Source: Acheta domesticus
Taxonomy: Eukaryota; Arthropoda; Insecta; Orthoptera; Gryllidae
NCBI GenBank assembly: GCA_031308135.1
Contig: JAHLJT010008756.1
Location: forward strand, 106,295,271-106,359,270
Length of the DNA stretch: 64,000 nt
Reading direction: 5' to 3'
Position numbers and translations under genes: made by a program. The first letter of the stretch is position 1. Each line of letters opens with the position of its first letter. Under the pieces are notes generated by a model. It was not told where the DNA came from. It saw only the letters and a list, made by a program, of their open reading frames with translations, and did not search any database. Positions 3,389 through 60,405 of the stretch are shown here, piece by piece.

Positions 3389-4552
3389 CCTCTGCGTACC
3401 CGTGCGAGAACTCTCGCATGTTAGACCACACACTCATCCCTATCCTTCTATATTCATTCTAAGAGGGAAAGTAGTTAACGAAACGTGTTTATTTGTATCT
3501 ATACTACTTACTACTATCTATAGTACTATACTTTTATTTATATCTATAAAGGTAACTTGCAATGTACTAACACAATTACAAATAAAAATAAAAAACAATG
3601 CAATTAATGTGTAAAAGAAATTTTCAATCAATATTTATTCAAATATCATGGAGAATTTGCTTGGAACAATTCCCAACACATACTTAAAGACATTTGAAGT
3701 AATTATTCAATATTCTTTGTCAATTAGGTTTTACTTTTTCGTGATGGTCACAAAAATATTAGCTTTTTACTTTTGAGAAAGCTACGTGTCTGAACCCGTT
3801 GACTTGAAAATTTCATCGAATGATAACGAAAATATTGGTACGGGTAAAACACAAACACAGTCTTCACTCTTCACTGAACACCCACATCCTTCCACAATTA
3901 AGTACACAGCACTTATAGACCATGAAAAAACGTTAATTGAATAGTTTCACTACACGCATAAGAAACAATCTTCATAGGTATAGGTATCAAGCAACTATAA
4001 TAGTACTTCTAGTTGTTGCTGGAGAGCAAATCTTGAATTAATGATTATGCAAATAAACCTCGTCAGACTGCACAAACTACGGTGTTAACAGAAAGCGTAA
4101 ATAAAGATTGTCGAATCTAAGCCTTCTAAGCGTGTCGCCACAAAAATTGCTACCAGTTGGAAGGATTGAATATTGAGGCGGCCTTGATAATATTGAAGCG
4201 TGGACTCGAAAAGTTAATTGAATGGATAGGAGAATGTCTTATCTTGTAGATTATGGTGTGAAAAACGTTTCTTTGAGGCCTTTGATCTCAAAATTTTACT
4301 TTTTAAGACTCTAAAACGCTTTGGTTTTTAGTTATTTGCCGATATAGGTTGACATGTGATGCGGGTTGCATTTTACATGAATATTTCGATGCGTTTTTTT
4401 TAAAGAAATCATCCATATTTTTAAAGTCAAAATGGAATTCATCAAGTTTCCCTGAAATTCTCTTTCTTTAGAGCCCTAATTTATAAAGATTGTGACGTGT
4501 GAGAGCCGGAACCCAAAGGTATACTACTGAAATAATACAGGAGACGATACAC
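3389..4552. repeat. Interspersed repeat A, copy 2
   Basis: From about 3590 to 4552 it is collinear with 16645-17590, with many identical 20-40 base blocks such as GAGAAAGCTACGTGTCTGAA and TTATGCAAATAAACCTCGTC. Both copies end at GAAATAATA(C/T)AGGAGACGAT. No open frame of note is present, so it is probably a non-autonomous or decayed mobile element. The 5' part shares a hairpin motif with 2413. Confidence 0.7.
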
Positions 4553-6020: not shown

Positions 6021-6038
6021 TGAAATAAAATTATTTTT

Positions 6039-7727
6039 ACTTTCCCGTATACGTACGTATACACGAAATTATACACGTAGTATTGGGAAAATTATGTAAT
6101 GCTGCCCGAAAAAATGGCCAATTTTCGGCGGAAAAAAATAATTGCCGGGCCGTGAAAACGAAAAAGTGGATAAAACCAATTGCTAAATTAAGAAAAAAAA
6201 TCCCCTAACACGTGGTGTAGCCAGAAACCCTGTTCTAGATCCTGGATACCGAAAACCCAATTGAAAGGAAAACGTCCGTCTGTCCGTCTGCCTGTCTGCC
6301 CGTCTGCCCTTCTGCCCCACTGCCCGTCTGCCCTTCTGCCCTTCTGCCCTTCTGCCCGTCTGCCCCTCTGCCCGTCTGCTCGTCTGCTCGTCTGCCCGTC
6401 TGTGAACACTGCTAGCGCCTAAACCATACGTACGATTTCTTCCAAAATGGATATTCCCCCGTCGATCTGGTTCTAGTCAAAGCTTTGAGATTTTGAAAAA
6501 GCTTCTTCAAAATTTGGGGGTACTTTATATGAAGCCCCCCGGGGGTTTTCCAAGTTTTCTCAAAAACGGCTCCACATTTTTTCTTTAAATTACTTGTATG
6601 AATAGAGTAAAATACACTTATTAACATGGCATAGGTCCGATTTTCACGCATAACTAAATTTTCGAAAATTGTGAAAGTTTGAATTTTTTTCGGCAACTCT
6701 TTCTCCAACTACAAAATTGAAGATTGAAGAGATTTTTTCCTCAAATAAAATTTGTTCTGCATATTGAGTTCTTTCATAAAGGTCATGCAAATGTTTTCCA
6801 AAACTTTAGTAGTTTTCGTGCAATATTGCGTGCAATATTAAAAAATTACAAAAACAAGATTTTCTCAAAAACCGCTCCAAATTTTTTCTTTAAACTTTTG
6901 GTAGGAATAGTGGTAAATGTACTCTATCAGATGGCATAAAAGCCACATTGCTTTATAGGTTAGTTTTTTAAAAATTACAAAAATGTAAATTTTTTCACGT
7001 TTCTCACTTCGACAATATTTACATTAGCAGCGATTTTTTCACATTATTATATTAATGAGTACATGTGCTTTAAATCATGTCAAGTAAAGTTTCTCGAAAA
7101 CACAACCGTTTTCTGTGAAAAGTAGCTCAAAATTTCGCATTTTCAGAAACGCTCAAACGCCGTTTTCTCATATATGGCTGCAAATTTTTTCTTCAAACTT
7201 TTGTAACGGATAGTGCTAATTACACTCTTTAGTATAGCGTATTTTGAGTTTTTTTTTGTTTTTTCAAAAATTACACAATTGTAATTTTTTTGAAAGATCT
7301 CTCACATCTTTAATATGCACATTACCAGCAATTTGTAAAGATTATTATATTTGTGAGTGTAAGTGCTTCAAATAACTTCAAATAAAGTATTTTGAAAACT
7401 CAAACATTTTCTGTGAAAATGAGCTTCAAATTGCGCATTTTTAGTAGCGCTAAAACGCCATTTTCTCTTAAGCGGCACATAATTTTTAAAAGAAAATTGC
7501 CATTTGTGACTAGGTTTTTGTGTTCTTTAATATTCTAAAATTAATGTTTCCGTTCTACCAATAGGAAACCGAAAAATTAAGAAAATGATAGAAAAATGTA
7601 CTTTTGGCGGTGATAGATGACAGCTGGCAAGAAAGAGTTTGTGGCAATTCCGAATAGCCAGCGAAGACCCAAGGAAATAGAAAACTAATACGGGAAAGTA
7701 TGTGCCATTCTGTAGCACCACTAGTTT
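6039..7727. mobile_element. ACTTTC repeat, most complete copy
   Basis: This is the best full-length member of the dominant repeat in the window. The left end reads ACTTTCCCGTATACGTACGT and the inverted form TACGGGAAAGT lies at 7689-7699. The right end continues to CACTAGTTTT at about 7727. Inside are a GTCTGCCC-type simple repeat (6270-6400) and three or four diverged direct repeats of about 300 bp. Each of these begins with a phrase like TTCTCAAAAACGGCTCCAAA and contains ATTACAAAAA. No open frame of significance exists. It lies between two parts of one unknown-family gene, apparently inside an intron. Confidence 0.7.
6270..6402. repeat. Degenerate 8-bp tandem repeat (GTCTGCCC)n
   Basis: About sixteen units of consensus GTCTGCCC or TTCTGCCC, with GTCTGTCC variants at one end, form the core of the ACTTTC repeat copy. 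Open frames across it are artefacts of low complexity. Confidence 0.9.
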
Positions 7728-9230: not shown

Positions 9231-9745
9231 AACACTTGAGGTTTTTTCTGTCCGGTTTTATGATGAATGAATATATAAACTACAATGTTGAAGATAAAGA
9301 TTTTTGCTTCAGAGAAAGTTTGTTGTGCAAAATTACCTGTTTAAAACAAGGTCGTGTACAATTTTTGAAAACTGAGTAGTTGTTGCGCAATTTGTGCTTG
9401 AACTTAACGCAATTTTTTCTTGAAAACCGGTCCAAATGTTTTCTTTAAATTTTCTCCACTTACGTAATAAAGGAAGGTAAAAAATATTATGCTCGTTCCA
9501 TTTTCGGGTATAGCTCGTTTTTTTCAAAAATTGCGAAAAAAATTAAAACTACAAAATTGAAGATAGAGATTTTTGCCTTAGACAAAGTCTGTTGTACAAA
9601 ATTAGCTCTTTAAAAAGATCATGTATATTTTTTTTGTAAAAGTTAGTCGTTTTCGCATAATTGCTGTTTCAAGTTAATGAAACATGTATGTCTACATAAC
9701 ATTACAATGTTGCGAGAAAGTATGTGGTGTTGATGGTGGCACCAC
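9231..9745. repeat. ACTTTC repeat family, partial copy
   Basis: The phrases CAAAATTAGCTCTTTAAAAA, GAAGATAGAGATTTTTGCCT and ATTTTCGGGTATAGC recur, inverted, at 20160-20830. The right end reads GCGAGAAAGTATGTGGTG...GGCACCACTAG, the family's CACTAG terminus with a GTGGTG/CACCAC hairpin. Confidence 0.65.
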
Positions 9746-9759
9746 TAGTTTGAATGTTA

Positions 9760-10110: not shown

Positions 10111-10673
10111 TCTCAAGCTTTCCCCTTTAATGTGTAATTTAATACTGAGTGAAATGCTTCTCAACGAAAAATAAACGTAAAGGACGGCTGCCTGATCGCA
10201 GCCAACATCATCTATCCCATTCAAGTATTGGCGACAATTACCGAAAATTCGAACTAGCTTCCCAACATATGTTGACACCAAAAAACTACGTCGTTAAATA
10301 CATTATTTATGAACCAACTAATTCTTAACTAAATATGTCAAGATGACCAAAAAACACAATTATTGTTTTCTAATTTTTACTTTCTCGCCTTACGAAGTTC
10401 TTCGTAAGAAGAGAAAGTTATGTAATTGTGCGCCGGAAAACGGCGAATTTTTGCCAGAAAAACTCTCATTTTATTTGGTTGACCTGTTGTTAAGTGAGTG
10501 CATGTAAACTCATATGCATTCATCCGGCCGTGTGAGTAACCAACGCACTTCAAAATTAATGAACGTATTTTTGATGTTAATTTTTGTTTTGTTCACAGAT
10601 TACATGATCTTAAAGTCAATTCACCGTTTCTCTACCCTAAAATAAATTTCCATGATCTTTTCCTCTTTTTTAG
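10111..10673. other. Non-coding stretch with an ACTTTC-family hairpin
   Basis: About 10379-10430 is the palindromic end of the ACTTTC repeat: ACTTTCTC...CTTACGAA / TTCGTAAG...GAGAAAGT followed by TATGTAAT. Only about 100 bp of the element is present. The rest has no feature I recognise, apart from the acceptor-like polypyrimidine tract TCCTCTTTTTTAG just before 10674. Confidence 0.6.
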
Positions 10674-13460: not shown

Positions 13461-13712
13461 ATTATGTCTAATGTATGTATTTATTATCCCTCATCAAGTG
13501 AGTAGTATTTAAATTAGGGATCCTAGACCAGATTTTCAAAAACCGCCTTTTCCCAATTTTGAAACATTCTCATTTTTTGCAATAAAATTTCATTTTTAGC
13601 CATAAATTCTCTGTATTTTCATAATTTTAGTTCAAAATGTTCGCATTTTTTTTACAAGTTTACGTGTTTTGAGGCGTTGAGGTGTGATATAGATCCTAGA
13701 CCACATTATTTC
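13461..13712. other. AT-rich spacer, nothing recognised
   Basis: It contains two copies of the phrase (GG)GATCCTAGACCA(G/C)AT, at about 13518 and 13692. I see no coding or element termini. Confidence 0.5.

Positions 13713-13759
<47 letters not shown>
13713..13759. repeat. (TAA)n microsatellite at the 5' end of a Dong-like LINE
   Basis: About 15 AAT units are followed directly by the LINE coding sequence. Confidence 0.95.
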
Positions 13760-15614
13760 GCAAGATATATGAACACTGCGAGAACTATCACGTCTTAGAA
13801 GAGGAGCAAAAGGGTTGCATCAAAAGATCGATGGGTTGTAAGCATCAGCTGACAATTGACGCAGTTACCTTGGAACAAGTTCACAAAAGACGACACAATC
13901 TGCATATGTGCTACATAGATTACCAGAAGGCATTTGATTCTGTCCCGCACAGTTGGTTGCAAAAGGTTCTTGATATATACGGTGTATGTCCAAAAATTAA
14001 ACGTACTCTTAGTGCAATGATGACGAAATGGAGAACAAACATATGTATAAGTTCGGAAAACATAGGAGTGGCCCATATTAAAATTGGTATGTTCCAAGGA
14101 GATTCACTGTCACCATTATGGTTTTGTCTAGCAATGAACCCTATGTCTCAATTGCTTAATAACAGCAAAATTGGGTACAAATTAATCAAAAGAAACAACT
14201 TACGCCTGTCTCATTTGTTGTATTCGATGACCTCAAACTCTATGCAGAGACCAGAGACAAACTACACAGTCTAATTGAGATAGTGAAAGGGTTCAGTGAA
14301 GATATAAAGATGTCTTTTGGACTAAACAAATGTGCCATAATAGACATTAAAAAGGGCAAGATCGAAAGCTACAATGAACCAATTAGAGACATTAAGGAAC
14401 TTCCCCCTGACGAGGTTTACAAATATTTAGGCATGGCCCAAAGCTACCGAATAGACCACACTAGCATGAAGAAAGCTCTGACCGATAAGTATAGATCAAG
14501 AGTTACAAAAATCTTGAACACTAAATTAAACGGGAAAAACCAAATCATAGCAATTAACTCATGGGCAATTCCTACACTTTCCTATTCTTTCGGAATTCTT
14601 AAGTGGTCAAGTGCAGACCTTGCTGAATTAAATAGATTGACAAGAAGGCTACTTACTAAATTCCGGTGTCTTCATACCAACTCATCTATTAAAAGACTAT
14701 ATCTACCCCGAAGAGAAGGAGGAAGGGGACTACTAAATATTGAAAATCTCTGCAGAACGCAAGAAAGAAAAATGAAGCAAAAGTTACTCTCGTGTGAAGA
14801 TGAATTAATGAAAATGGCTGTACAAGCAGATGATGGTTATACCCCGCTAAACTTGAGTGCCTCCCGCCCAGGGTCAACGGAAACTGCAGCAGAATCAACA
14901 TCAAAGGAGACGATTCAAAGAGATCTAGAAGAATGGCAACGAAAGGCAATGCATGGCAAATTTCCCAAAGCTATTCATGAATCGCATGTTGAAATACCAT
15001 CGTCGCTGCAATGGCTATCAGACGGCTATTTATACCCAGAAACAGAGGGATTTATAATGGCAATCCAAGATAGAGTATGCCGAACTAGAAACTATGAAAA
15101 ACATTGCATGAACATGCCCGTTGTTGACAAATGCAGGAAATGCGGCACCAGTGGTGAAACAATAGAGCATATAATGGCCGGCTGCACTGCACTTGCCGAC
15201 AGCGCTTACTTGGGCAGACACAACCAACTAGCTAAGATTGTCCATCGACAATTGGCTCTCAAGCATGGAATGTTAAATAGTGGAGCTCCACCGTATTATA
15301 AATACAACCCAGCACCAGTAATGGAAGCAAATAATACCATCATTTATTGGGACAGGCCCATATTTACAGATAAAACTGTGGCATTCAATAGACCTGATAT
15401 AGTTTTGATTGACAGGAATAAGAAAGAAGCTATACTGGTTGATATTGCCGTATCATTGACACACAATCTAAAGAAAACAGAGACCGAGAAAATTACTAAG
15501 TATGAAGATCTTGCTCTGGAAATAAAACAAATGTGGAAACTGCAGAGTGTAAAAACATATCAACTTGTTATTTCGGCTGAAGGTGTAGTCTCAAAAATTT
15601 CAGGAAAAATCTAA
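13760..15614 (+). pseudogene. R4/Dong-type LINE: reverse transcriptase plus restriction-like endonuclease
   Basis: The frame is open from the TAA array and reads EEEQKGC, then CYIDYQKAFDSVPHSWL (RT block with the first catalytic Asp) and MFQGDSLSPLWFCLAMNPMS. At about 14223-14232 one base is missing: the frame shifts inside the YxDD box (TATTC-GATGACCTC), so the catalytic motif is broken. The second frame, 14283-15614, continues with MSFGLNKCAIIDI and YKYLGMAQSY. It then has a zinc-binding CRKCGTSGETIEHIMAGC (about residues 287-304 of that frame) and RPDIVLIDRNKKEAILVDIA, the RPD...D signature of a restriction-like endonuclease. This order (RT, CCHC, RLE) defines the R2/R4 branch. Dong elements of that branch are known to insert in TAA repeats, as seen here. 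The 5' end is truncated. Confidence 0.85.
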
Positions 15615-15834
15615 AACTAATGGGATTACCTCAACGAATCCTAAACTACGGACAGAAAGCAGTGATTCTGCAGACATGTCATATAGTTCGCAAGTTCTTG
15701 AACTAACACAAATGAGGTTCCCATATTGGTCTTGAGGGTCAGAGTGAAATCTCTCTCCTCAGTGACTGAGCTCTTTCCTATTCGTGGCAGGATTGGGCAA
15801 ATTGAACCCAGCACAAGCAGCTGAGAATCACAAG
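15615..15834 (+). other. 3' untranslated tail of the Dong-like element
   Basis: A non-coding stretch runs from the stop codon to the next TAA array. It contains TGAGGGTCAGAGTGAAATCT and ends GAATCACAAG directly before (ATA)n. Confidence 0.6.

Positions 15835-15867
<33 letters not shown>
15835..15867. repeat. (TAA)n microsatellite between two Dong-like copies
   Basis: Eleven ATA units form the 3' junction of the first LINE and the 5' junction of a second, more truncated one. Confidence 0.95.
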
Positions 15868-16640
15868 TAGGATGATATTAAAGTGTTTGCAAGGAATGAA
15901 GCGATTCTCTCCCAAATGCTGTCCGTCATCAATGATTTTTGCAATTACATCTGCATGAAGTTTGGTCTTGACAAGTGTGAGAACATTGAAGTTGATATGC
16001 ACACAGTGATCCAGAATCTTGAGCCAGGTAAAACTTACAAATATCTGGGCATTGAAGAATGTGAGACCATCTCGAACGACACAATGAAAGAAAGAGAGAA
16101 TTCGCAGGGAATATTACAGAAGAGTGAGACTGGTCCTGCAGTCCACTCTGAACTCCAGAAATAAAATATCGCAATAGGTAGTTTGGCGGTGCCTGTAGCC
16201 GAATACAGTTTCGGACAAGTGGACTGGACTGGTCAAGAAATTCGCATCGTGGATCGAAAAAACAGAAAATCTCGTACAATTCATTGTGTTGCCCCCTCGA
16301 GCTGATGTACATAGACAATGTGCCACGTAAGGGAGGAGGAAGATACCTCAGACAAATTGAGGCCTCCTGGCACAATGCAATAGTCGGTATGAGAATGTAT
16401 GTAGTCAGCCATCAAGATGACCCACTAATGAGGCAGGTCATGAAATCTGACCACAGAATGGGAAACAGAGGCATTGAAAGTGTATCAGGAAGCATTGCGA
16501 ACAAGACTATGCAAGAAATGCAGAATGACAGAGACACTGAACGTCTTAACATGAAATGTGACACACAAAAAATGTTAAAAGAAATCGTGGTGAGACAAAC
16601 CATTCCACGGACAATATTGGACAGGACACAGATCAATAAA
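15868..16640 (+). pseudogene. Second R4/Dong-like LINE fragment
   Basis: The coding remnant starts exactly at the catalytic box (GGATGATATTAAAG, DDIKVFARNE). It continues NYICMKFGLDKCENIEVD and KTYKYLGIEECE, which parallel MSFGLNKCAIIDI and YKYLGMAQSY in the first copy. After a deletion and frameshifts, 16284-16640 gives LEASWHNAIVGM-like residues (QIEASWHNAIVGMRMYV) and a basic C-terminal tail. The endonuclease domain is absent. Its sequence differs clearly from the first copy, so it is a separate insertion from a related lineage. Confidence 0.7.
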
Positions 16641-16644
16641 GAAA

Positions 16645-17590
16645 TTTTCAATAAAAAAAATATTCAGTATCATGGAGAGTTTTCTTGGAACAATTCACAA
16701 CACTTCCTTGAAGACATTTGAAGTAATTCAATATTCAGATTCAATTCAATATTCAGACGTAATTCAATATTCAGATTCAAGATTCAATATTCTTTGAAAG
16801 TTTTTAGCTTTTCGTGATAGTCACAAAAATATTGGCTTTTTACTTTTGAGAAAGCTACGTGTCTGAACCCGCTGACTTGAAAAATTCATCGAATCACTGC
16901 TGATAACGAAAATACTGATATAGGTAAACCACAAACACAGTCTTCACTGTACACCCAAATCCCTCCACAATTAGGTACACAGCACTTATAGACCACGGCA
17001 AAACAATCAAATGGTTTCACTAAATGCATAAGAAACAATCTTCATAGATATCAAGCAACTATAATAGTACTTCCGGTTGTTGCTGGAGAGCAAATCTTGA
17101 ATTAATGATTATGCAAATAAACCTCGTCAGAGTGCACAAACCACGGTGTAAGCGTAAATATAAGATGGAGGAATCTAAGCCTTCTAAGCATGTCGTCAAA
17201 AGCAACAAGGGCTGAAATATTTAGGTGACATTGATAGTATTGAAACACCGAAACCAAAATTTAATTAAATGAATATCCAAGAATGTCTCTTCTTTTAGAT
17301 TATGGTGTGAAAAACATTTCTTTGGCCACACAATTTTAGTTTTTAAGTTCCCAGAACGCGTTGATTGGGAGTTATTTGACGATATACATTCGAAAACATT
17401 GGCAGGTGTGGCGGGTTGCATTTGACATGAACATTTAGATGAGTTTCTTTAAAACAAAACCTTCATATTTTTAAAGTCAAAGTGCAATTCGTCACGTCTC
17501 CGTGAAATTCTCGTTTTTTAGAGACCTTATTGGTTGCGTGTGAAAGCAGCAAAGGAAAGATATACTACTGAAATAATATAGGAGACGATG
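16645..17590. repeat. Interspersed repeat A, copy 3
   Basis: It is collinear with 3590-4552 (see GAGAAAGCTACGTGTCTGAA at about 16848). Near 16717-16790 a short tandem repeat (ATTCAATATTCAGA, four imperfect units) is private to this copy. It starts where the Dong-like fragment fades out. Confidence 0.7.
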
Positions 17591-17639
17591 TAGAACAAAA
17601 AGTCGAATGTAAGAAACGAACAAATAAATAATATACAAA

Positions 17640-19165
17640 ATTGCAAATTCGAATTTACGACGCATCCAGATGTCTGAAGCACAGTAAATTTGCAGTGGGC
17701 TATTACGTTTCACACGAAATTATATAAAAACTACTCGTATTTTCAAAAAATTAAGCAAAACCCTATTTGAAGATGTAGTTTTGATAAATTCATTGAGAAA
17801 ACCAGCTGCCATCTATAGCCGCCAAAAGTACATTTTTTGACATTTTTCAATGTTTCCGTTTCCTAATAGTAGAACGTAAATATTAATTTTAGAATATTAA
17901 AGAACACAAAAACCTCCTCCTAAATGACAATTTTCTTTTAAAAATTTGTAGCCGTTTTTAAGAAAATGGCATTTAAGCGCTACTAAAAATGAAAAGTTTT
18001 TTCTAACAAAATTTTTGAGTTTTCAGAAAACATCATTTGAAGTCGTTTGAAGCACTTACACTCACAAATATAACATGTTTACAAATTGCTGGTAATGTGT
18101 ATATTAAAGATGTGAGATATTTAGAAAAATACAATTTTCAAAAATGTAAATATGAAAAAACAAAAAAAAAAATACCCCAAAATAAACTTTACGTCATATT
18201 AAAGAGTGCAATTAGCACTATCCGTTCCAAAAGTTTGAAGAAAAAATTTGGAGCCATTGATGGCGTTTGAGCGTTTCTGCAAATGCGGAATTTTGAGCTA
18301 GTTTTCACAGAAACGTTTGAGTTTTCGAGAAACTTTACTTGACATTATTTAAAGTAAATGTACTCATTAATTTAATAGAAATAAATCGCCGGTAATGTAA
18401 ATATTAACGTCGTGAGACAAGTTACAAATTCACTTGTGTAATTTAAAAAAACAACAACAAAAGAATAGTACAATTTGGCGCTTATGTCATCTCAGAGAAT
18501 AAATTAGGCAGTATCCCTACCAAAAGTTTAAAGAAAAATTTGGATCCGTTTTTGAGAAAATCTTTTTATTCCTAATTTTTTAAAATTGCACATATTGCAC
18601 GCAATATTGCGCGAAAACTACTAAAATTTTCGAAAAAAATGTACATGATCTTAAAGTCCAACTGCAGAACAAATTTTATATGAAGGAAAAATATCTTCAA
18701 TTTTGTAGTTGGAGGCAGATGCCGAAAAATTCAAACTTTTGCAATTTTTGAAAATTCAGAGTAAACCGTGAAAATCGGAACTAAGCCACCTTATGAAATG
18801 TACTTTATTCTATTCTTATAAGAAATTTAAAGCCGTTTTTGAGAAAATTTTGGAAATGTCTGGGGGCTTCATTTCAAGTACCCCAAATTTTAAAGAATTT
18901 TTTCAAAATCTCAAAGCTTCGTCTCGAGCCAGATGGACAGTTTTTTTTTTTCAATTTGAAAAAAATCGTATGCATAGTTTAGGCGCTTGTGGTGTTCACA
19001 GACGGACGGACGGAGAGACGGACGGAAAGACGAAGTTTTGAAAAGAACAGTTTTTTCGATATCAGGTGACGCCAAAACGGGTACTTCCGCTGAAGTCTCG
19101 CAATCAGTTTTCCACAGTATCACATAACTTTCCCTATATTACGTACGGGAAAATAAAAGGTACTT
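17640..19165. mobile_element. ACTTTC repeat, reverse-oriented copy
   Basis: It begins AATTTACGACGCATCCAGAT, as do 52570 and, inverted, the window end at 63950-64000. It carries several ~300 bp units marked by CCAAAAGTTTAAAGAAAAAT, an (ACGGACGG)n core at about 19000-19035, and ends near ACTTTCCCTATATTACGTAC / GGGAAAATA at 19127-19155. Several short open frames here are spurious. Confidence 0.65.
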
Positions 19166-19185: not shown

Positions 19186-19360
19186 TATCTCGAAACTAGT
19201 GGTTCTCAACATCACATACTTTCTCGCGTAATTGGGTACAGCTACGTAATATTGAAATACTATATTTTATGCGCTACTAACATCTTAGCTATTATGTGAA
19301 AAATGTCCAATTCAACCAAGAAGCGAACAACTCACTCTTGCCAGCCCAGTGTTGAAACTA
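19186..19360. repeat. Repeat segment shared with 52122-52290
   Basis: CTAGTGGTTCTC...ACATACTTTCTCGCG, then CTAACATCTTAGCTATTAT and TCCAATTCAACCAAGAAGC, occur in the same order at 52122-52290. It begins with the CTAGTGGT terminus of the ACTTTC family. Confidence 0.65.
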
Positions 19361-20154
19361 TGTGCATTCACTTGGCTAATTATGTCAATACAGTAATTAG
19401 AATGTATGAAATTGTCATCAAAATAATTACGAAAATTCTGTCTGCTTCCCGTAAGTTGCCTTTCGTCATAAGAAAAGTTCCGATAGCGTTTCATCGTTTT
19501 TCTTTTATTCAACATGCTGTAATTATTTTTAGGTATCAGATATTAAATTTTATATAATTACCTCACCGGGCATTGTGAGGAGTAATTTATAAAAAACTGC
19601 AGCAAAATTGATCGCAAACGGAAATATTAAAATATTGGCTCTCGGCCTATTATAGGAGTTGAATCACCACCAGTTGGACTAAATAAAACAGCTCTATCGT
19701 ATCACCGTCACCATCTCGACGTTCCACAACCAACGAGATAGAAATTCAAGCTCGTTGTCCACAACAATCAGCTTCTCGATGGGGCTTTGTTGCGAAATTT
19801 CAATAAACCTTTGCGGATTGCTTAAAAACAAATTCATCAATACACTGAGAACACAAATTGAGTTATTAAAGCGAGAAAGTAAAAATAGAAATATTATTGG
19901 CAGTTGCTTGCACTGCACAGTTTACTTGCACTCCGCAGTCATATGATATCTTCAACTGGAAAATATTATAATTTTATGTTCTCGTGGAATAAAGTAAAGT
20001 AAAAGTGCGAGAGAGCAGAAATAAAATTAATATTGGCATTTTCAATAGGATGTTATAATTAAATTAATTATTTTTCACATTCATTCAGTTTTTCCCTGCC
20101 TGTAGTTGATGTAAAACCTGAATGTATTTCATTAATTTTAAACGGAAATTACCC
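19361..20154. other. No gene seen
   Basis: AT-rich DNA with short open frames lacking motifs. Part of it (AACAGCTCTATC at about 19688) may extend the repeat shared with 52340-52390. Confidence 0.4.
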
Positions 20155-21310
20155 CAAAACTACTCTTTTTTTTAAATTGTACATAACCTTTTTTCAAGAG
20201 CCTATTGTGTACAACAGAATTTGAGGTAAAAATCTCGATCTTCAATTCTGTAGTTTTGAAAAGTGTTTTGCAATTTTTGAAAAAGAGGAGCAATACTCGA
20301 AAATGGGACTAGCGCCATATTTTTTACCGTTCCTTATTACATATGTAGAGAAAATTTAAAGAAAAAGTTTGGGCGGATTTGAGAATTTTTTTTGTAAATT
20401 TCAATCGCAAATTACGCAAAAACTGCGGGTTTCTGAAAAAAATGTACATGACCTTCTTTAAAGAGTTAATTTTGTACAACAGACTTTGTCTGAGGCAAAA
20501 ATCTCTATTTTCAATTTTATAGTTTTGATTCTTTTTGCAATTTTCGAAAAAAAAGCTATACCCGAAAATGGAACTAGCATAATATTTTTTACCTTTACTT
20601 ATTACATAAGTAGAGAAAATGTAACGAAAAAAATTGGATCTTTTTTTAAGAAAAAAATGCGTAAATTTCAAGCGCAAATTAGGCAAAAACTACTCATTTT
20701 GCAAAAAATTGTACTCGACTTTTTTTAAAGAGCTAATTTTGCATAACAGACTTTGAGGCAAAAATCTCTAACTTTAACTTTGTAGTTTTTATGTATATAT
20801 TTTTTGCAATTTTCGAAAAATCGGGAATTTCAACGAAAATGAGACCTCTCTTAAACGTCCTTCGCACTATTCAACAACACAATGTAATCAAAAAATTTTG
20901 AGCCATTTTTTTTGAAAATTTTCAAAATGCCCGAGGGGCTTAATGTAAAGTACCCCCAAAATTAAAATAACGGTTTAAAATTCAAAGGGATTCCATCAGC
21001 CAGAACGGTTGAGGAATATCAGTTTTGGAGAAAATCGGGTGAACGGCTTATGCGCTAGTGTTGCGCACAGACGGAGGGACAATCTTTTTGCCGTTAATCG
21101 ATTTTGGGTATGAAGGACGCAGTAAATATGGATTCTGGCTACACCATGTGTTAGGGGATTTTCCCCGTATATTTAGCAACTGGATTTAACAACTTTTTCG
21201 CTACCAGGGCCCGGCAATAAGAGTTTTTGTAACAAACATTCGTCGTTTTCCGGCGCACGATTACAATACTGTCTCTTCTTACGTTAGTAAGTGCGAGAGA
21301 GTAAAAACGT
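20155..21310. mobile_element. ACTTTC repeat, reverse-oriented copy
   Basis: Three or four units with AAAATCTC(T)A..TTCAATTTTGTAGTTTT phrases are followed by AAGTACCCCCAAAATTAAAA and CCACACGGGTG-type text. The end is a palindrome, CTCTTCTTACGTTAGTAAGTG...GAGAGAGT (about 21272-21304). In its reverse complement the stem CTTAC/GTAAG sits inside ACTCTCTC/GAGACAGT. Confidence 0.65.
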
Positions 21311-28090: not shown

Positions 28091-28640
28091 TTTAACTTTC
28101 TCGTATAGGTAGTATATACAGTAAATGTGCTAAGTATTATGTAATGCAACCAAAAAATCTATTTCACAGTTTTGACAGAAACACGTTTTGGGGATCCCTG
28201 ACCCAGAAAAAGGGTGTCTTCTCTTCAGTCTACCTATGATCAATGTTAAAGAATAACCCATATACAGGATTTTCAAAATATATCAATTTTAAAAAACTGA
28301 ATACTCGTATTTCCCAATCATTCTGCCTGATGTCCTGGTCCATTGAATTTGAAACAAATATTTTAATTTTGTGGGTTACTTAGGTAATAAAAGTCATAGG
28401 AGATTTTAGAAATATTCTCAAAAATTGCTCCAATTTTTAAAAGAAAGTTTTGTAAGAGTAAAATACAGTGAATTATATAGCTATATATTTTCATAAAAAA
28501 ATTTGGAATTAAAAAAGAAAGTTATTAGAATCTCCCACTCTTTTTTTGATGAAGAGATTTTTTCAAGAGATGAAAAACAAATGATATTGCATAGCATTTA
28601 GAAATAATGAGAGAAAGTATGTGCTGTAACGCCGCTAGTT
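28091..28640. repeat. ACTTTC repeat, short copy in a CRIM1 intron
   Basis: It starts ACTTTCTCGTATAGGTAGTA (28095), then TATGTAATGCAACC, ACACGTTTTGGGGATCCCTG and ACCCAGAAAAAGGG. It ends GAGAGAAAGTATGTGCTGTA...CGCTAG at about 28640. The interior is shortened and lacks the simple-repeat core. Confidence 0.6.
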
Positions 28641-31199: not shown

Positions 31200-31925
31200 T
31201 TTTAAATTTGAAATTTTTTCGGCGTCTTCCTAGAACTACAAAATTAAAGATAGAGATTTTTTCTTCCAATCAAATTTGTTGTCCAAAGCGAGTTCTTTCA
31301 TTAAGGTCATGTAAATTTTTTTGAAAATTTTGGTAGTTTTTGCGCAATTTTGGTAGTTTGCACGCAATATTTGAAATTTTAAAAAATTACAAAAATCAGA
31401 TTTTCTCAAAAACGGCTCCAAATTTTTTCTGTAAACTTTTGGTAGGGGTAGTGCTAAATAAGCTCTATGAGATGACAATAACGCCATACCGCTCTATTCT
31501 TTAGTTATCTCAAAAATTACAAAAATGAAATTTTTGACTTGTCTCTCATGTTAATATTTACATTAGCGGCGATTTGTTGACATGATTATATTAATGAGTA
31601 CATGTGCTTTAAATAATGTCAAATAATGTTTCTTGAAAATTGAATAGTTTTCTGTGAAAAGTAGCTCAAAATTCCGTATTTTCAGAAACGCTCATTTTCT
31701 CAAAAATGGCTTCAAATTTTTTGTTCAAACTTTTCAAATGGATAGTGCTAATTGCACTCTGATATGGCGTAAAGTTCATTTTGGGGTGTTTTTTGTTTTT
31801 TCAAAAATTACACAAATGTAATTTTTTTGAAAGTTCTCTCTTACCGTTAAAATGCACATTTCCAGCAGCGCTTAAACGCCATTTTCTTGAAAACGGCTCC
31901 AAATTTTTCAACGAAAATTGCCATT
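31200..31925. repeat. ACTTTC repeat, internal part
   Basis: Units starting TTTTCTCAAAAACGGCTCCA and AAAACTTTTGGTAGGGGTAG follow the order seen at 6770-7500. Neither terminus is present. The right side is cut by the element with long inverted repeats at 31931. Confidence 0.7.
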
Positions 31926-31930
31926 TAGGT

Positions 31931-34071: not shown

Positions 34072-34665
34072 AATTAAATACAAAAATAGTACATTTTTCT
34101 TCGTGAATAATTAGAAATAAGCTTAGCGTTTCGACTCATTATAAGCAGAAGAGAAATCGTCACGAAACTGCTGTGCAGTAATAAAGCGATCTTTAGCAAA
34201 ACGACATACGAACGAAATATCATACATACGAAATGTTCATCTGATGAGAAGACGGTGGTATGCTTTTTTTTTGTGTAACCATTTAAGTTTCCATGAATTA
34301 GTATAAAAAATAATGTACGGAACTAGTTGAAGATTTTGGCGTACTCATTTCGACATGGTATACTTTTTATTCGTTCGCCTCGTAACTCACTTTCTGTACT
34401 AGATACATAAATATTTCAAAATCGAACATTTTATTCGTATGCCTTGTATAACACTTTTGCAATAGGTACATAAATAAATCATAATGGAATATTTTATTCG
34501 TACGCATTGAAAAGCCCTTTCCATATTATTATTTAATAGTTTCGTAAATAATTCAAAATGTAACTTTTTATTCGTAAGCCATCATCTCACGTCGCGTACT
34601 ATTTTGAAAATAACAATAGTTCCTTTGGGGAAGTGGTTATTCGTAAAGGCGCGCAGAGCACCTAC
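34072..34665 (-). other. CRIM1 intron, nothing recognised
   Basis: AT-rich with a thrice-repeated phrase (TTATTCGTA(C/A)GC...AT) spaced 60-65 bp around 34370-34580, perhaps a degenerate tandem repeat. Confidence 0.4.
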
Positions 34666-35107
34666 CTAGCAGGCAGACGGGGCAGCAGCGGTTCTTGGGT
34701 AGCACCGGGCGCGCGCAGGGCGTGGGCGGGCAGCGGTCGGCGAAGCAGTGCGCCTCGCCGTCCACGCATACGCAGCTGCGGCATGCGCGCGCCTCGCGCC
34801 ACGCGGCCCCATGCGCGCGCCGTCCGCACGCGCGACGCGGCGACAGCGCGGGCGCGGGGGCGGGCGCGGGCGCGGGGGCGGGCGCGGGGCGCGGGCGGGC
34901 ACTCGGCGCAGCACGCCCCCGGGCGCGGCGGCGTCGGCGCGGCGCAGGGCGCGGGCGGGCACTGGCGCGCCTCGCACAGCGCGCGCCCGCCCTGGCACAC
35001 GCAGCGCGTGCACGCGTCCGCGCGCCACGTCTCGCCCTCCACGCGCCCGTCCGCGCCCAGGCACACCATCCCCGCGGGCGCGCCCCGCCACGCCGACGGC
35101 GCTTCGT
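34666..35107 (-). CDS. crim1: CRIM1 exon: two VWC domains, very GC-rich, one-base frame break
   Basis: The exon lies between the acceptor TGTGTGTTGCAG (minus) and the donor G|GTAGGT. The first VWC reads GETWRADACTRCVCQGGRAL, CEARQCPPAPC and GACCAEC. A Pro/Arg/Ala-rich linker follows (about 34925-34830). The second VWC (WREARACRSCVCVDGEAHCF, CPPTPCARP, NRCCPVCLL) is in a different frame. Length is 442 bp, one more than a multiple of three, while the neighbouring phase-1 junctions demand 441. One extra base, or two missing, therefore lies in the GGCGCGGGCGCGG linker. The exon looks close to 80% GC inside AT-rich introns. Ligand (BMP) binding is the family role of these domains. Confidence 0.85.
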
Positions 35108-35179
35108 CTGCAACACACACTTGCTGGTTGAGGCAGGGGGCCGGGCGTCGACGAGAACGCTCATTCGCCCTAACACTGT

Positions 35180-35560
35180 GTGTTCTGTTATATGTGATGG
35201 TGATCTCCGCTGTAACGAGAGATCCGATACCGACATACATGTCGACGTGAGAGGTTTCCCTCTCCAGATATTTCCCCGGTGGGATTCCACCCCCAGCCGG
35301 GATAACACCTGATCTCGTAAAACTAGTGACAATGCAGTGCGTTCAAGTGTAAGGGGAGGGGATAGTACAAGGAAGAGGAAGGAACAGATCATGCGCGGCC
35401 CGTTTGTTTGGGAAATATTCTGGCATTCACCTGGCGTTGATAAAAGAAACCACGCAAGACTACCGACCACATCAGTTGGCCGCTAGAATTTTCCTCCAGG
35501 CTACGGTTGAATTGGAATCAGCTATGTACCTAGAGTCTAAAATCTGCCACACAGGACTTA
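35180..35560. repeat. SINE-like repeat, copy b
   Basis: CTGGCATTCACCTGGCGTTG through GGCCGCTAGAATTTTCCTCC and GGTTGAATTGGAATCAGCTA matches the reverse complement of 37780-37950. The tRNA-like B box is missing or beyond recognition at this end. Confidence 0.6.
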
Positions 35561-35889: not shown

Positions 35890-37256
35890 AACTAGTGGTA
35901 CTACAAAGTGACAGACATTTCCGTATTACTTTTCTATTACCTTTGGTCTCGGCTAGCAATTCGGAATTGCCACACTCTTGCCAGCTGCCATCTATCACCG
36001 CACAAAGTAATCTTTTACTTTTTCTTAATTTTTCGGTTTCCTAATAGTAGAACGAAAATATTAATTTTAGAATATTAAAGAACAGTAAAACCTCGTCCTT
36101 TATGGCAATTTTCTTTGAAAAATATGAAGCCGTTTTTAAGAAAATGGCGTTTAAGCGCAACTGTAAATGCAAAATTTGAAGCCGTTTTTCACAGAAAATT
36201 TTTGAGTTTTCGAAACACTTCCTTTGAAGGCATTTAAGGCACATACACTCTCAAATACAATTGTGTTTATAAATTGCTGGTAATGTGCTTATTAAAGATG
36301 TGAGAGATCTTTAAAAAATTACATTTATGTAATTCGAAAAGTTTGAAGAAAAAATTTGAAGTCATTTTTATGATTCTGAAAATGCGGAATTTTGAGCTAT
36401 TTTTCAGAGAAAAACGGTTGAGTTTTCGAGAAACTTTATTTGACATTATTTAAAACATATGTACTCGTAAATATAACGATGTGAACAAATCGCCACTAAT
36501 GTAAATATTACCGACATAAGAGACAAATAAATGAAATATATTTTTATAATTTTTGAAAAAAACGACAACAAAAGAATAGAGCAATATGGCGTGTATGTGA
36601 TCTCATAGAGCACATTTAGCACTATCCCTACCAAAAGTTTAAAGAAAACATTGGAGCCGTTGTTGAGAAAATCTTGTTTTTGTAATTTTTTAAATTGCAC
36701 ATATTGCACGCAATGCTCGAAAACTACTAAAATATTTAAAAAAATGTACATGACCTTAATTAAAGGACTCACTCTTCAATTTTGTAGTTCTAGGAAGACG
36801 CCGAAAAAATTTCAAACTTTTCCAAGTTTCGAAAATTCAGAGTTAACCGTGAAAATGGGACATATCCCAACTTAATAAGTGTATTTTACTCTATCCTTAC
36901 AAGAAATTTAAAGAGAAAATTTGGAGCCGTTTTTGAGAAAATTTTGAAAATGTCCGGGGTCTTCATGTAAAGTACCTCCAAATTTTATAGAATGTTTTTC
37001 AAAATCGCAGGGCGTTGAGTGGAACCAGAGCGACAGAGGAGCATCCAGTTTGGAAGAAATCGTACGTATGGTTTTAAGCGCTAGTATTGTTCACAGACTG
37101 ACGGACAGACGGACGGACGTTTTGAAAATAACCACTTTTTCGGTATCAAGGGACCCCAAAATGTGTATTTCCGTTGGAATCTCGAAATCAATTTACCGCA
37201 ACCCTATTCTACGTATATTACTCCGTATATACGTACGTATACGGGAAAGTAAAAAT
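35890..37256. mobile_element. ACTTTC repeat, reverse-oriented copy in a CRIM1 intron
   Basis: It runs from CTAGTGGTACTACAAAGTGA (35892) to TACGTATACGGGAAAGT (37250), so both characteristic ends are present. Internal units carry CCAAAAGTTTAAAGAAAACA and TCCGGGGTCTTCATGTAAAG. The core simple repeat is GACGGACAGACGGACGGACG (about 37081). It is about 1.36 kb, shorter than the copy at 6039. Confidence 0.7.
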
Positions 37257-41086: not shown

Positions 41087-41991
41087 TGTTCGGGCCCACA
41101 GCAAAGCAGAAATAAATACGTTTATTTCACAAGCAAGGCAGAACAGTTGAATTGCGTAATCGGCAGAGCGCAGCCGTTGACCGCTGAGATCATCAGCGGG
41201 ACCGATGAGACCGCTGAGTATCGCCTTCACATCCGTTGTTCCGCGTATTCTCCCAACGGACGGCAACGGACGGGCGTGGCCGCTCGTACGTGTCCGCCTG
41301 CCCACCTCACCCCCACAGCTCGGTCCGTTGGAGGAGCAACGGACAAAAACTGCCAGATCATTGCAAATCCAGATCAAATGGCAAATGGTAATTGGCCATC
41401 GCCATCCCCACCTCTGCCGCGCGTGTGAGCCCTCTCCTAACGTCTCTGCCCCAACCGAATTCGGCTTAACCGACTTCGTTAGTCCGCATAAAGACACCGT
41501 GCAAGATAGACGCGTGTGTTAGGGCTCCGCGCAGTAGCGTGTAAAGAATCTATAATCGTGCAAATGAGCTGCATACGGCTCGCACATAAATTGTTTAATC
41601 GTGGCAGTGCACGCTTTAATTGTGTCTGTCGCTCTTGCGTGGATTTGTGCCCGCAATTTTGGTTGAACTATGTAATTCGCGGCTGCTTCTGGTCAGCGCA
41701 AGGTAGCTCGGCGGTCCAAGGTGTCACTACAATAACTACGCTTGGACAGGTGTATTAATGCACCAAGAGAAATTTTCATCTTAATTCTGTGCTTCTTGTG
41801 CATTTACTGTGTGAATACTGTACATTTACTTATTAAATATTGTTTGTGCTGGAAATTTGCTCGTATATGCATCCTGCACTCCTGCGCCAATCCCAAGAGC
41901 TATCAAAGGGTTTCGGGACTACTGTACTTCAACAATACAGTTCATTCATACAGTCCACTCATGAACATTAAGTGTATAGTAGCCCCGAACA
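41087..41991 (+). repeat. 5' LTR of the BEL-type element
   Basis: It is almost identical to 47373-48278. I see one local difference (AAATAAATACG against AAATTATTAACG) and one substitution (ACTACAATA against ACTATAATA). Open frames on either strand of the LTR are duplicated in both copies and are not genes. Confidence 0.95.
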
Positions 41992-46507: not shown

Positions 46508-46690
46508 TTGCTGACCCCCCTAGTCCCATGAAGGGGCAGGTAGCTAAGGCAAGCAATTTAATTTGGATGTTTGCTAACCCCCCTAGTCCCATGAAGGGAC
46601 AGGTAGCTAAGGCAAGCAATTTAACTTGGATATTTGCTGACCCCCCTAGTCCATATGTAATGGCAGGCAGCTAAGGCAACCAAACTTGGA
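46508..46690. repeat. Three 63-bp tandem repeats
   Basis: Units start at 46508, 46571 and 46634 with TTGCT(G/A)ACCCCCCTAGTCC, then AGGTAGCTAAGGCAA(G/C)CAA. The third unit is the most diverged. They lie in the 3' untranslated part of the BEL-type element. Confidence 0.9.
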
Positions 46691-47372: not shown

Positions 47373-48278
47373 TGTTCGGGCCCACAGCAAAGCAGAAATT
47401 ATTAACGTTTATTTCACAAGCAAGGCAGAACAGTTGAATTGCGTAATCGGCAGAGCGCAGCCGTTGACCGCTGAGATCATCAGCGGGACCGATGAGACCG
47501 CTGAGTATCGCCTTCACATCCGTTGTTCCGCGTATTCTCCCAACGGACGGCAACGGACGGGCGTGGCCGCTCGTACGTGTCCGCCTGCCCACCTCACCCC
47601 CACAGCTCGGTCCGTTGGAGGAGCAACGGACAAAAACTGCCAGATCATTGCAAATCCAGATCAAATGGCAAATGGTAATTGGCCATCGCCATCCCCACCT
47701 CTGCCGCGCGTGTGAGCCCTCTCCTAACGTCTCTGCCCCAACCGAATTCGGCTTAACCGACTTCGTTAGTCCGCATAAAGACACCGTGCAAGATAGACGC
47801 GTGTGTTAGGGCTCCGCGCAGTAGCGTGTAAAGAATCTATAATCGTGCAAATGAGCTGCATACGGCTCGCACATAAATTGTTTAATCGTGGCAGTGCACG
47901 CTTTAATTGTGTCTGTCGCTCTTGCGTGGATTTGTGCCCGCAATTTTGGTTGAACTATGTAATTCGCGGCTGCTTCTGGTCAGCGCAAGGTAGCTCGGCG
48001 GTCCAAGGTGTCACTATAATAACTACGCTTGGACAGGTGTATTAATGCACCAAGAGAAATTTTCATCTTAATTCTGTGCTTCTTGTGCATTTACTGTGTG
48101 AATACTGTACATTTACTTATTAAATATTGTTTGTGCTGGAAATTTGCTCGTATATGCATCCTGCACTCCTGCGCCAATCCCAAGAGCTATCAAAGGGTTT
48201 CGGGACTACTGTACTTCAACAATACAGTTCATTCATACAGTCCACTCATGAACATTAAGTGTATAGTAGCCCCGAACA
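47373..48278 (+). repeat. 3' LTR of the BEL-type element
   Basis: Partner of 41087-41991; ends CCCGAACA followed by the ATATG duplication. Confidence 0.95.
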
Positions 48279-48283
48279 ATATG

Positions 48284-49611
48284 CGTATGTATTAACGTGC
48301 CGTGGCGATTGGATTTTAACTCGAGAGGGTTGGCAGCATGCAGTAGTCTCTAAGAAATTGTAGCTTTTCCCTCAAAAAAAAAAATAGTGTGTTGAAAACG
48401 TAGCCGCGGTTTGCTAACCAAAATAAGGGCAAAACCGCTTTTCTTCACACCCAAAACAGGTACAGCTTAACAATTTATTCTATGATCACTGCTTCTTTAG
48501 TTTAGATATGCAAACAGTCGCAATTTCTTTCCAATTTCAGTTTTCTGCGAGATAATTAAAAAGCTCTTGTGTTCCATATGCCCAGCAGCTTATTTCGCTC
48601 TCCCACTCTAAGTTACTTTGCTGTCTGTACAAATTGGTGCCGAAACCCGAGAATCAATAAGTGTTACTGATGTGTGGTAGCAAACATCTTGTTCTTACAA
48701 TTACAACGTGTTATGTGTGTTGCAGTGTGAGGTTATAGGGTATTAAGTATTGATACGAGTAAAAGGTATCCCCTCAAATATTTTCACGTTTGCTGGCAAT
48801 AAGCCACAAACCAGTGCCTAGTGTTAACAGAAATAGCATAAGATTATTCACAAGTTACCCTCTCAGATAACTAAAAAATTTCTTTGAACAATGCCTTAAA
48901 AAAACAGACTTTGGTGAGGTGACAGCTCGTAGAATCAGCATTAGCTAGAATCGAAGAGAGCTTATAATCACTCTCAGACCTTAGCGGGTCAAATATTCAA
49001 TGTATTATGCAATTGTATCACTTTGCTTATACATCGAGTTCAATTCATCGAGTTTAATAATTATGCAATTGTGTACAAAACAGTTATTGAAGAGCAACAT
49101 TTCAGATGATAACTTACCCGAGCTTTTGCAGAGTGTGAACGACACAGCACTTCCGTGTGTAGAGGGAAGATCAGGAGACGCTGCAATAGAGCAAAAACAT
49201 TATCTCTGCCATTTAATCTCAGTGCCATTGCAAGTAATACGTATGCATATTAATATAAAACAATAAAATGATTTGGAACATATTAAAACACTTTCTTAGT
49301 ACGAGGTAACAGCACACATAATATTGAAATAACATTAAAGCAAACATTTAATATGACAAAAGAAAATGGGAATAGTATACCTAGAAAATATGTCGAGAGA
49401 ATAAGTCAAGAAAACAAGAGATGTGAATTCACAGAGAAGGTAAGAACGAAGATATATTTAAGTAGAAAGAAGGGAAATGTCACATGTGTGTGACTGAAGA
49501 GGGGGGAGAAAAATAAAGAATAGGGAAGGAAAGGAAAGCTAAAAGTCTACAGTAGATTGAGGAACAAAAGAAGTAAGATGATATTAAATGCGAGTCATTC
49601 GAGACTCCTAC
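48284..49611 (-). other. CRIM1 intron, nothing recognised
   Basis: AT-rich, no transposon termini seen. A purine-rich patch (about 49470-49570) precedes the exon donor. Confidence 0.5.
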
Positions 49612-49968
49612 CTTTGCACTTGCAGATGGGGCAGCCACGATCGTTCGTGCGGAAGCCGTGAGGGCACGAGCGCTCGCAGTCGGGCGGCTGCATGGGGCGG
49701 CACTGGTTGCAGCGGCACACGGGGCACCCCTGGCGACTGAGTCGGAAGCCGTGCGAGCAGTTCTTGTGGCAGCCCACCAGCGGCGGGCAGGCCGGCGACG
49801 GCTGCGCGGGAGGTGGCGACGGCGTCATCGTCATCGTCACCGTCATCGCCGTCGTTGTAGTCGTCGTCGTCGACGACGACGACGGCGAAGGCGGCTGCGC
49901 GCAGCGGCACAGCGGCTGGCCCAGGCGGTCCAGCAGGAAGCCTTTGGGGCACTCCAGCGAGCACTCCT
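49612..49968 (-). CDS. crim1: CRIM1 exon: antistasin-like repeats with a Ser/Thr linker
   Basis: A 357-bp exon between the acceptor TTCCCGCTGCGCAG (minus) and the donor G|GTAGGA, phase 1 at both ends. It opens with CSLECPKGFLLDRLGQPLC, a short antistasin-like unit. A linker of Ser, Thr, Pro and Met encoded by TCG/ACG/ATG-rich DNA follows (about 49885-49800). Then come two full units: VGCHKNCSHGFRLSRQGCPV (CRC) and DCERSCPHGFRTNDRGCPIC (KC). The C...C...C-P/S-H-GF...GCP-x-C-x-C pattern defines antistasin repeats, which in CRIM1 lie between VWC pairs. The linker is unusually simple in sequence (runs of CGTCGTCGT on the plus strand). Confidence 0.9.
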
Positions 49969-51682
49969 CTGCGCAGCGGGAACAGCTCTTTACAAGGGAC
50001 GTCAGACCCAGCAGATTAAAAGTAATTTATTTCTTAATTACTCTTCATGTTTCTACTAATCATTAATTATGGAAGGCAATGAAGGAATTACTTTACCTAC
50101 GATGGAAAACTGTCACTTTATGAGTGAAGAAGTTGGGAAAGAGCTATGTTTTTATTAGATAGAGTTTCTTGATCATTGTGTAGAATCTCTAATTTTTATT
50201 ACATTTGTTTTATATATTATTCAAAAATATACGAAATATTTTACTTATGGAGGGAGACAGAAAGAGACCCACAGAGAACTTACTGATACACAGTATTAGG
50301 GAATGCAAGGCTCAGTAATATTAATAATTGAGAGTAATAACTATCACTCATTCCAAAGTAGATTACGTGCGCGATAAACTATCTTTCACCACCGGTAGGG
50401 GCCAGCACGAGATTGAAGTTGTAAACCAAATTATCACTCTGAGGTGTTGTAACAATTATTCCCGTTTGGTAACTTGTTTAACATTTTCATCTGGATACAA
50501 ATATAATTTGGCTCTTCCATTTTATACATTTGCCATTTTCTGTGAAAATACAAGCGACGATTGTGTCAACATTTTTGTTGAACAACTTTGAAATTCTTGA
50601 GGGGGACAAGCTGACGATAAATTTATTAGAAATGCAACTAGTTATAAAAGAAACGTAAGTACGTAAGTGTAAAAAGAAATGAAAGCGTGAAATCATCAAC
50701 TTGTTTAATTCGTTTCGATTTCATTTGGCAAAAAAGTTCAATTTGGTGCAAAATTTAGAATTAATTTCGTAATTGATCACGCCTCATAGTCGCCTAACAC
50801 CTGTTTGGGCGCTTGGAAAATGGAGGAGGAAATGTACTACACAAATATTTTCAGAGGAACATGGATTTAACAATAGAATAATAAATTTTAACTTCCCGCA
50901 AATACTGCGCGGATTGATAGTTTCTGAAAGTATTAATATTTTTCCATGAGGGTGTACATGCAACATTAGTCAACTCGCCAAATGATTGGGAAGAAGTGAA
51001 GAAACTGAAAAGTATCAAGCGGTGGCAGTGGTGGCCAGATGATGTGTCATGAAGACAGAGAAGAACTAAGTATGATGGGATCAAGAGGAGGGCATTATAG
51101 GGAAGAAACACTGCATGGTATGGGATGGAGATGAGATGAAATGGTGATGAAAGTGAGATTAAAATGAAATAGGTTGAAACGATGGAGATGGAGATGAATT
51201 TTGATTTGTCAGTAGAATGAAGTACATCTTAGAGCTGCTGTGAAGAACATAAGGTGCAGTTTGATGGCGTTCCATCATACACTTTCAGGATTCTTGACAG
51301 TTTTACCCGTTCAGGTTTGCCCTATCTCGCATCAACAGACTCCTAATTTTATTAGTTCATGATTATTAAGTTCGTGCTTCGCAGAACAAATATATTTTTC
51401 TCAGGTTTCACAAAACTTCATCCAATACCGGGTGAAGTACCCAGACGTTCAAGATAATTTATTTCAACCAAGAACCCGTATTCTGATGTGTCATGGTTTA
51501 GTCATGATAATTTTTTATAAGCCGACGGATTTTGTTCGTAACAAATATAATCTCCCTCGTTTCGACCATACGCGCTCATGCTCACAGAAACGGGTTCAAC
51601 GATTTGAGAAAAAGTGCCACGTAACCTGAACTTGTGTGGGAAAGAGCGGTGGTGGGTGGTGAGATGAGGTGAGAGCACTCAC
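49969..51682 (-). other. CRIM1 intron, nothing recognised
   Basis: AT-rich. A G/A-rich patch at about 50990-51200 (AGATGGAGATGAGATGAAAT-like) is low-complexity. Confidence 0.5.

Positions 51683-60372: not shown

Positions 60373-60405
<33 letters not shown>

Follow-up and report, generated by a model that had tools for sequence, protein, structure and literature searches.

A non-coding repeat family with a 5' hairpin in Acheta domesticus, very probably decayed rolling-circle transposons of the DINE-1/HINE kind

The repeat family and its neighbours in the window

The window, a 64,000-nucleotide stretch of an Acheta domesticus contig, contains a non-coding repeat family for which self-comparison and the reading of element ends yielded 15 related pieces. 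Together they cover 13,236 of the 64,000 bases (20.7%, a total that depends on piece limits set by hand, some of them approximate), which agrees with a preliminary description of about a dozen like pieces filling roughly a fifth of the window. Matches among the pieces are mostly 66-90% identical and form a web, and the end motif ACTTTCYC occurs 28 times, compared with 4.0 (sd 1.9) in shuffled sequence.

Copy A (6039-7724, plus strand) is complete, as delimited from the sequence, self-comparison, a tandem-repeat scan and end reading. Bounded on its 5' side by a T-run (6034-6038), it comprises, all on the plus strand, a hairpin (6039-6092), a GTCY microsatellite (6276-6402), central repeats (about 6860-7470), an inverted repeat ending at 7699, the two arms of a short stem (7702-7705/7715-7718) and a terminal CTAG (7721-7724). 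The general order of the element, as read from the ends, starts with the T-run and ACTTTCYC, followed, in the hairpins compared, 12-44 bases on by an inverted second arm and then by TATGTAAT or a near form. Downstream lie a conserved core, a GTCY-type microsatellite that only some copies have, tandem repeats about 265-300 bases apart in the centre and a conserved 3' block, and the terminus reads GRGAAAGT, short stem, CTAG and at least TT. The preliminary description had recognized one palindromic end, which is the 5' hairpin, and had missed that the other end is a defined terminus as well.

The 5' and 3' arms are mutual inverted copies. The inverted repeats are subterminal, the 3' one being internal; in copy A it stops 25 bases short of the end of CTAG. 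A palindrome adjoins the 5' repeat, as in HINE/DINE-1-like elements. T-runs of 2-6 precede the initial A in all 48 hairpins compared, with 5 T in 31 of them; for this count only six bases were examined, and the outer-arm search pattern itself began with TT. By eye, the 3' stem measures 6 bp in copy B and in one copy elsewhere in the genome (locus L073), consists of 4 bp plus a mismatch in most copies, and is weak in I, F and S. The tandem-repeat scan detected GTCY arrays at 6276-6402 and 62289-62344 and 265-bp repeats at 20174-20820, and self-comparison revealed the repeats spaced about 300 bp in copy A. GTCY microsatellites and central tandem repeats, typical but not universal features of HINE/DINE-1 elements, are thus present in the family.

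The majority of the other pieces are truncated or damaged. On the plus strand, copy B (9273-9748) is 5'-truncated with an intact 3' end and a GTGGTG/CACCAC stem, copy C (10379-10470) retains an E-like 5' hairpin and the core start only, copy F (28095-28637) has both ends and has lost the second palindrome arm, piece G (31204-31930) is a central part only, and copy J (55201-55840) underwent an internal deletion that took the second palindrome arm and the core. Further along the same strand follow copy K (60193-60843; both ends, T-A at stem pair 7), piece L1 (61102-61240; degraded E-like 5' end, 3' limit approximate), copy L2 (62079-62826; 5' part, interrupted by copy M) and copy M itself (62827-64000), which is inserted in a T-run of L2 and runs off the window; its 3' end was not reached within 3.3 kb starting just before the window end. 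The minus strand carries copy D (17588-19155; it starts with its 5' end at 19155 and lacks a visible 3' end), piece S (19196-19390, upper limit approximate; an element 3' end, possibly that of copy E), copy E (20120-21307; stem CTTAC/GTAAG, 265-bp central repeats), copy H (35892-37250; both ends, microsatellite present) and copy I (52126-54175; damaged 5' outer arm, intact 3' end). Another dispersed repeat (3614-4548 and 16638-17589, 75% identical over about 1 kb) abuts copy D at 17589.

Both palindrome arms are discernible by eye in 10 of the 15 pieces (A, C, D, E, H, I, K, L1, L2 and M). The exact ACTTTCYC...GRGAAAGT frame that had been described earlier is found in only two of these ten (10379 and 60193), the other eight being altered on one or both sides. 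In F (28095) and J (55201) the outer arm alone survives, and B (9273) and G (31204) are devoid of a 5' end.

Stop-to-stop frames of 55 aa or more number 350 in the window; the 150 longest gave no match to Rep, helicase or transposase families at E<=0.01, and the family shows in these frames the lack of coding capacity expected of a HINE/DINE-1-like element. Families matched by these frames include RVT_1 and DUF1759. The RVT_1 domain (13831-14274) lies within 13693-16718, next to a 443-aa frame whose matches in Sitophilus (weevil) and Cyamophila (psyllid), its closest named relatives, reach 98% coverage and rank below several unnamed ones; this region probably represents the remains of a non-LTR retrotransposon. 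Long overlapping frames on both strands at 34564-35482 and 49483-50063 may be the source of the window's VWC, Antistasin and Pacifastin matches, as exons of a gene for a cysteine-rich protein. Two directly repeated copies (41087-41991 and 47373-48278), each about 905 bases long, are 99.6% identical, far more alike than the family pieces, and a 196-base stretch is repeated 2.2 kb apart with 99% identity (1-196 and 2208-2403). A 63-bp tandem repeat (2.8 copies, 88% matches) occupies 46508-46683. The core of copy K (60248-60368) has a 98% identical copy on the opposite strand about 87 kb leftward (G000:C5655:106268342), which suggests a local inverted duplication.

Folding and paired change of the 5' hairpin

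Genome-wide, 48 hairpins were kept of 51 core matches; two partial or false matches at one locus (L085) and window copy H were dropped. The set for folding and arm swapping comprised 57 copies, among them copy H, added by hand, with 41 distinct hairpins; F and J, having no second arm, are absent from it. The commonest sampled form, present in 12 of the 57 copies, gives a single 54-base hairpin of -15.6 kcal/mol (DNA parameters) with a z of -9.8, and z is below -2 in 33 of the 41 distinct hairpins relative to mononucleotide shuffles. As for the inner stems proposed earlier, CTTAC/GTAAG exists in copy E; in the main subfamily, CCCGTATACGTACGTATACG is part of the single 54-base hairpin, not a separate inner stem.

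The two arms of a copy match each other better than chance assortment would provide: own arms outpair arms swapped between copies (-7.43 vs -6.34, sd 0.21), and none of 5,000 permutations was as good. This gain is small within the A-like group (-7.72 vs -7.25, p 0.005). Covariation was scored in 25 of the 32 A-like forms; seven short, damaged or hard-to-align forms were left out, which biases the alignment to intact stems. Of its cells, 93.0% are paired, and two-sided change affects 3 of 24 stem pairs and 9 of 598 cells. The paired change with stem retention noted previously is therefore real and modest.

This change may equally well have arisen in ways other than selection on the fold, namely by template switching, with one arm copied from the other, or by descent from a few masters or subfamilies, an explanation that contests the selection claim and not the family assignment. 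None of 500 shuffles and none of six slid controls attains the observed covariation score, which speaks for selection, albeit in a score that ignores relatedness; as a count, the pairs with two-sided change are nothing unusual (109 of 500 shuffles have as many), and further pair types lie below the shuffled mean (11 vs 12.2, with 498 of 500 shuffles at least as high), as template switching or descent would have it. The few two-sided changes also largely follow subfamilies, and C-A breaks at pair 2 (6 of 48 hairpins) are nearly as frequent as T-A at pair 7 (8 of 48, a figure that includes one misaligned row). The E-like group points both ways: across its nine forms own arms have no pairing advantage over shuffled ones (p 0.32), and four of the nine fold weakly (z above -2), yet it contains three different inner stems. 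From the literature, template switching is documented to yield multibase compensatory changes (PMC8794818), against which stand a DINE-1 3' stem described as keeping its pairing across species despite changed sequence (PMC2374699) and compensatory 5'-hairpin changes reported in two Culex elements (PMC3627910).

The 5' arm, the inner repeat and the 3' repeat were compared at stem position 7 in the 26 of 48 hairpins to which a script assigned a 3' end. The three segments agree as C/G/G or T/A/A in 25 of these (22 C/G/G, 3 T/A/A, 1 A/G/G). Inspection by eye identified four unsound rows: L001 repeats window copy A, L017-2267 has the same 3' end as L017-1669, the row of L076 is misaligned, and copy E was given the 3' end of piece S. 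Leaving out L001, L017-2267 and L076 gives counts of 20, 2 and 1 of 23.

Because most copies are fossils, the changes seen in them largely reflect master copies plus subsequent decay, and the hairpin statistics ignore kinship. Selection on the folded form, as put forward in the preliminary description, is nevertheless plausible and matches what the literature describes for Helentron-type elements: own arms do pair better than shuffled ones, even though much of the signal follows subfamilies and is absent from the E-like group.

Genome copies, insertion site and a Helentron gene

A DNA search of the whole genome (2.33 Gb) with three subfamily queries returned 3,752, 1,702 and 4,545 first-look candidates, sets that may overlap and are not element counts; 40 per query were scored. 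The 29 genome copies closest to A (L001-L030 with A itself excluded; chosen for similarity, not a random sample) have a mean pairwise identity of 0.968 over their first 225 bases. A recognizable 3' end is present in 17 of the 29, at 1.54-1.66 kb, and CTAG is followed by at least TT in all 17. By eye, the flanks vary between copies outside the TTTT-ACTTTC and CTAG-TT junctions, the exception being L026 and L029, which have a common flank.

One insertion could be compared with its empty site. A complete family copy lies inside a Helentron gene at locus C2131, and the paralogous loci C6477 and C1707 provide two empty references: in element orientation, the empty site T5 has become T5-element-TT, a net gain of TT. 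This fits insertion into TT or T-rich DNA that leaves the target otherwise unaltered, the pattern given for DINE-1 and HINEs (PMC2374699, PMC4067079), and is compatible with both a carried and a duplicated TT. Since flanks differ between copies and this insertion has two empty paralogues, the ends are conserved element boundaries, as had been supposed.

The interrupted gene at C2131 has, as predicted from domains scanned as separate frames, the make-up of a Helentron, with an RGSPH-type Rep, a PIF1 helicase and a C-terminal endonuclease. Its matches are Helitron_like_N (5.9e-22), DUF6570 (2.7e-12), PIF1 (7.4e-14) and, just over the cut-off, Exo_endo_phos_2 (2.2e-06; Pfam PF14214, PF20209, PF05970 and PF14529), and the endonuclease region is the part cut by the inserted HINE. 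The closest database protein to its Rep frame, from Diabrotica virgifera, is 51% identical over 99%. A genome search with DUF6570 gave 10 matches, and at three of these loci the Rep motif contains GSPHEH (FQMRGSPHEH at L065 and L069, FQMCGSPHEH at L066). The S of such FQMRGSPHEH-type motifs has been called Helentron-diagnostic (PMC4067079). A protein search of the genome produced 42 matches, one with an unbroken frame and the rest shorter or stop-bearing in many rows. Given the Rep/PIF1/endonuclease gene and these 42 matches, a Helentron exists, or existed, in the genome. The earlier proposal that the family encodes no protein and is mobilized in trans is thereby well supported, with no Rep, helicase or transposase match in the scanned frames and a Helentron gene in the genome.

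Whether this gene is the family's partner was approached through the three loci, which are 92-97% alike over many kilobases. An E-like 5' hairpin stands upstream of the gene at all three, facing the opposite way; as the element behind the palindrome runs away from the gene, the palindrome was rejected as the gene's own 5' end. Comparing C6477 (L076) with C1707 (L077) by eye, homology sets in at the CTAG end of a family member in reverse orientation, and this end probably belongs to the E-like element upstream of the gene; another 3' end, on the opposite strand, stands between the two. The border at these two loci hints at a mobile unit that has a family-type 3' end and carries the Helentron gene reversed, as has been reported for a Helentron of Drosophila (PMC4067079) and some Helitron2 elements (PMC3627910). 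At C2131, homology instead sets in about 80 bases within the reverse-oriented element. Helentron termini, sought on both sides, were not found within 19.3-25.5 kb at the three loci, and the right border was not reached. The search for a longer coding relative advised previously has hence delivered a Helentron gene, and the same two ends were not demonstrated around it at the three loci, which counts against the assignment of the family to DINE-1/HINE elements. A tiny element-like unit occurs at about 1150-1400 of the gene-oriented C1707 sequence (L077), where a 5' hairpin and, on the opposite strand, a 3' end lie within about 200 bases.

With a probability of roughly 93%, we assign the family to decayed non-autonomous rolling-circle transposons of the DINE-1/HINE kind, companions of Helentrons with Helitron2-type ends. 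The assignment is supported by the layout, the ends, the one T-run insertion with its gain of TT, the lack of detectable transposition genes, thousands of candidates and the Helentron gene; the short 3' stems and the GTCY run, for which a script was positive in only 3 of 11 window copies tested, were counted against it. Membership among the canonical Helitrons (Helitron1), mobilized by their abundant Rep genes, is improbable. The 3' CTAG with a stem just upstream would suit such elements, and their genes are plentiful: a Helitron_like_N search gave 674 candidates, the 150 scored were all over the cut-off, and all 30 Rep loci cut out of these read RGLPH, the canonical Helitron form. Those Rep proteins could in principle act on CTAG ends, a further point against the DINE-1/HINE assignment. 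However, the family starts with ACTTTC after a T-run and not with TC after A, and its target is T5 with TT and not the junction between A and T; in addition, canonical Helitrons are described as being without a 5' hairpin and paired subterminal repeats (PMC3627910). They were rejected on the 5' TC and on insertion between A and T. Still more remote is a MITE of a cut-and-paste DNA transposon with TT target duplication, rejected despite the short, non-coding, abundant copies, their inverted repeats and the TT gain, as the 3' inverted repeat lies 25 bases inside the end of CTAG, and the very ends otherwise differ. An RNA gene was dismissed on the transposon ends and on Rfam, which gave 0 matches at gathering thresholds. 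Searches with exact A-type end patterns, and these patterns only, gave 0 matches in viral contigs and 0 in prokaryote genome contigs.

Proposed mechanism and known systems

By analogy with its relatives, a Helentron protein acting in trans would nick the junction between T and A at the 5' end, one strand would be peeled off while replication replaces it, and the process would end close to the 3' inverted repeat, stem and CTAG. For the 5' arm there are two possible partners: it could pair either with its neighbour, forming the hairpin, or with the 3' inverted repeat, and Bao and Jurka suggested that the latter pairing destroys the hairpin and thereby sets the end point (PMC3627910). We tentatively extend this to a doubtful, two-part proposal: that the 5' arm serves as a switch between the neighbouring and the far 3' repeat, with all three segments changing together, and that the Helentron gene may be carried reversed in a unit ending exactly at a HINE-type 3' terminus, which would make it the partner. 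If true, the switch reading and the thousands of copies would allow a direct test of the Bao-Jurka end-point model. The passages of the DINE-1, HINE and Helitron2 literature cited here describe no experiments on the 5' hairpin. The abundance and possible three-way pairing make this family a good genome data set on how rolling-circle transposons recognize their ends.

Since passenger status and an end hairpin have already been published for Helentrons, the family is an ordinary though abundant one, its folding 5' hairpin being a published hallmark of the Helentron group; what looked like a candidate novelty thereby falls away, and roughly one fifth of the window is placed in a known class. Structural features of DINE-1 were described in 2008 (PMC2374699), Helitron2 elements, with a hairpin at either end, compensatory changes and the suggestion on the end point, in 2013 (PMC3627910), and HINEs and Helentrons in 2014 (PMC4067079); related reports concern Hel-2 in Lepidoptera (PMC4344730), a blowfly family (PMC3630058) and oyster HINEs with satellite-like repeats (PMC7492417).

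The family resembles DINE-1/INE-1 of Drosophila, as described in PMC2374699 and PMC4067079, in its subterminal inverted repeats (subTIRs), the second inverted repeat by the 5' subTIR, the GTCY microsatellite, the central repeats, a probable 3' stem, the TT target and its non-coding nature. It differs in a subTIR sequence unlike those tabulated ones that were compared, in a longer and nearly perfect 5' palindrome, and in a 3' stem shorter than the 7-11 nt given for DINE-1. With the HINEs of mite and Culex (PMC4067079) it shares palindromic subTIRs, terminal T-runs of variable length, T-rich insertion and a Helentron gene in the same genome; the difference lies in the autonomous partner with the same ends, for which there is here a candidate gene. 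The 25 bases between the 3' repeat and the end of copy A compare with about 20-30 bp in Helitron2 and about 38-60 bp in mite HINEs (PMC3627910, PMC4067079). Lepidopteran Hel-2 (PMC4344730) likewise has a 5'-IR, subterminal repeats, a 3' hairpin, CTAG and a CTGT microsatellite, but is set apart by a 250-bp consensus, a TC start and A/T flanks. In Helitron2 with its asymmetrical terminal inverted repeats (PMC3627910), the 5' hairpin also uses the 5' repeat, the 3' repeat also lies upstream of a second hairpin, here a putative one, and compensatory changes are reported too; unlike Helitron2, the candidate partner gene in Acheta domesticus has an endonuclease, as in Helentrons.
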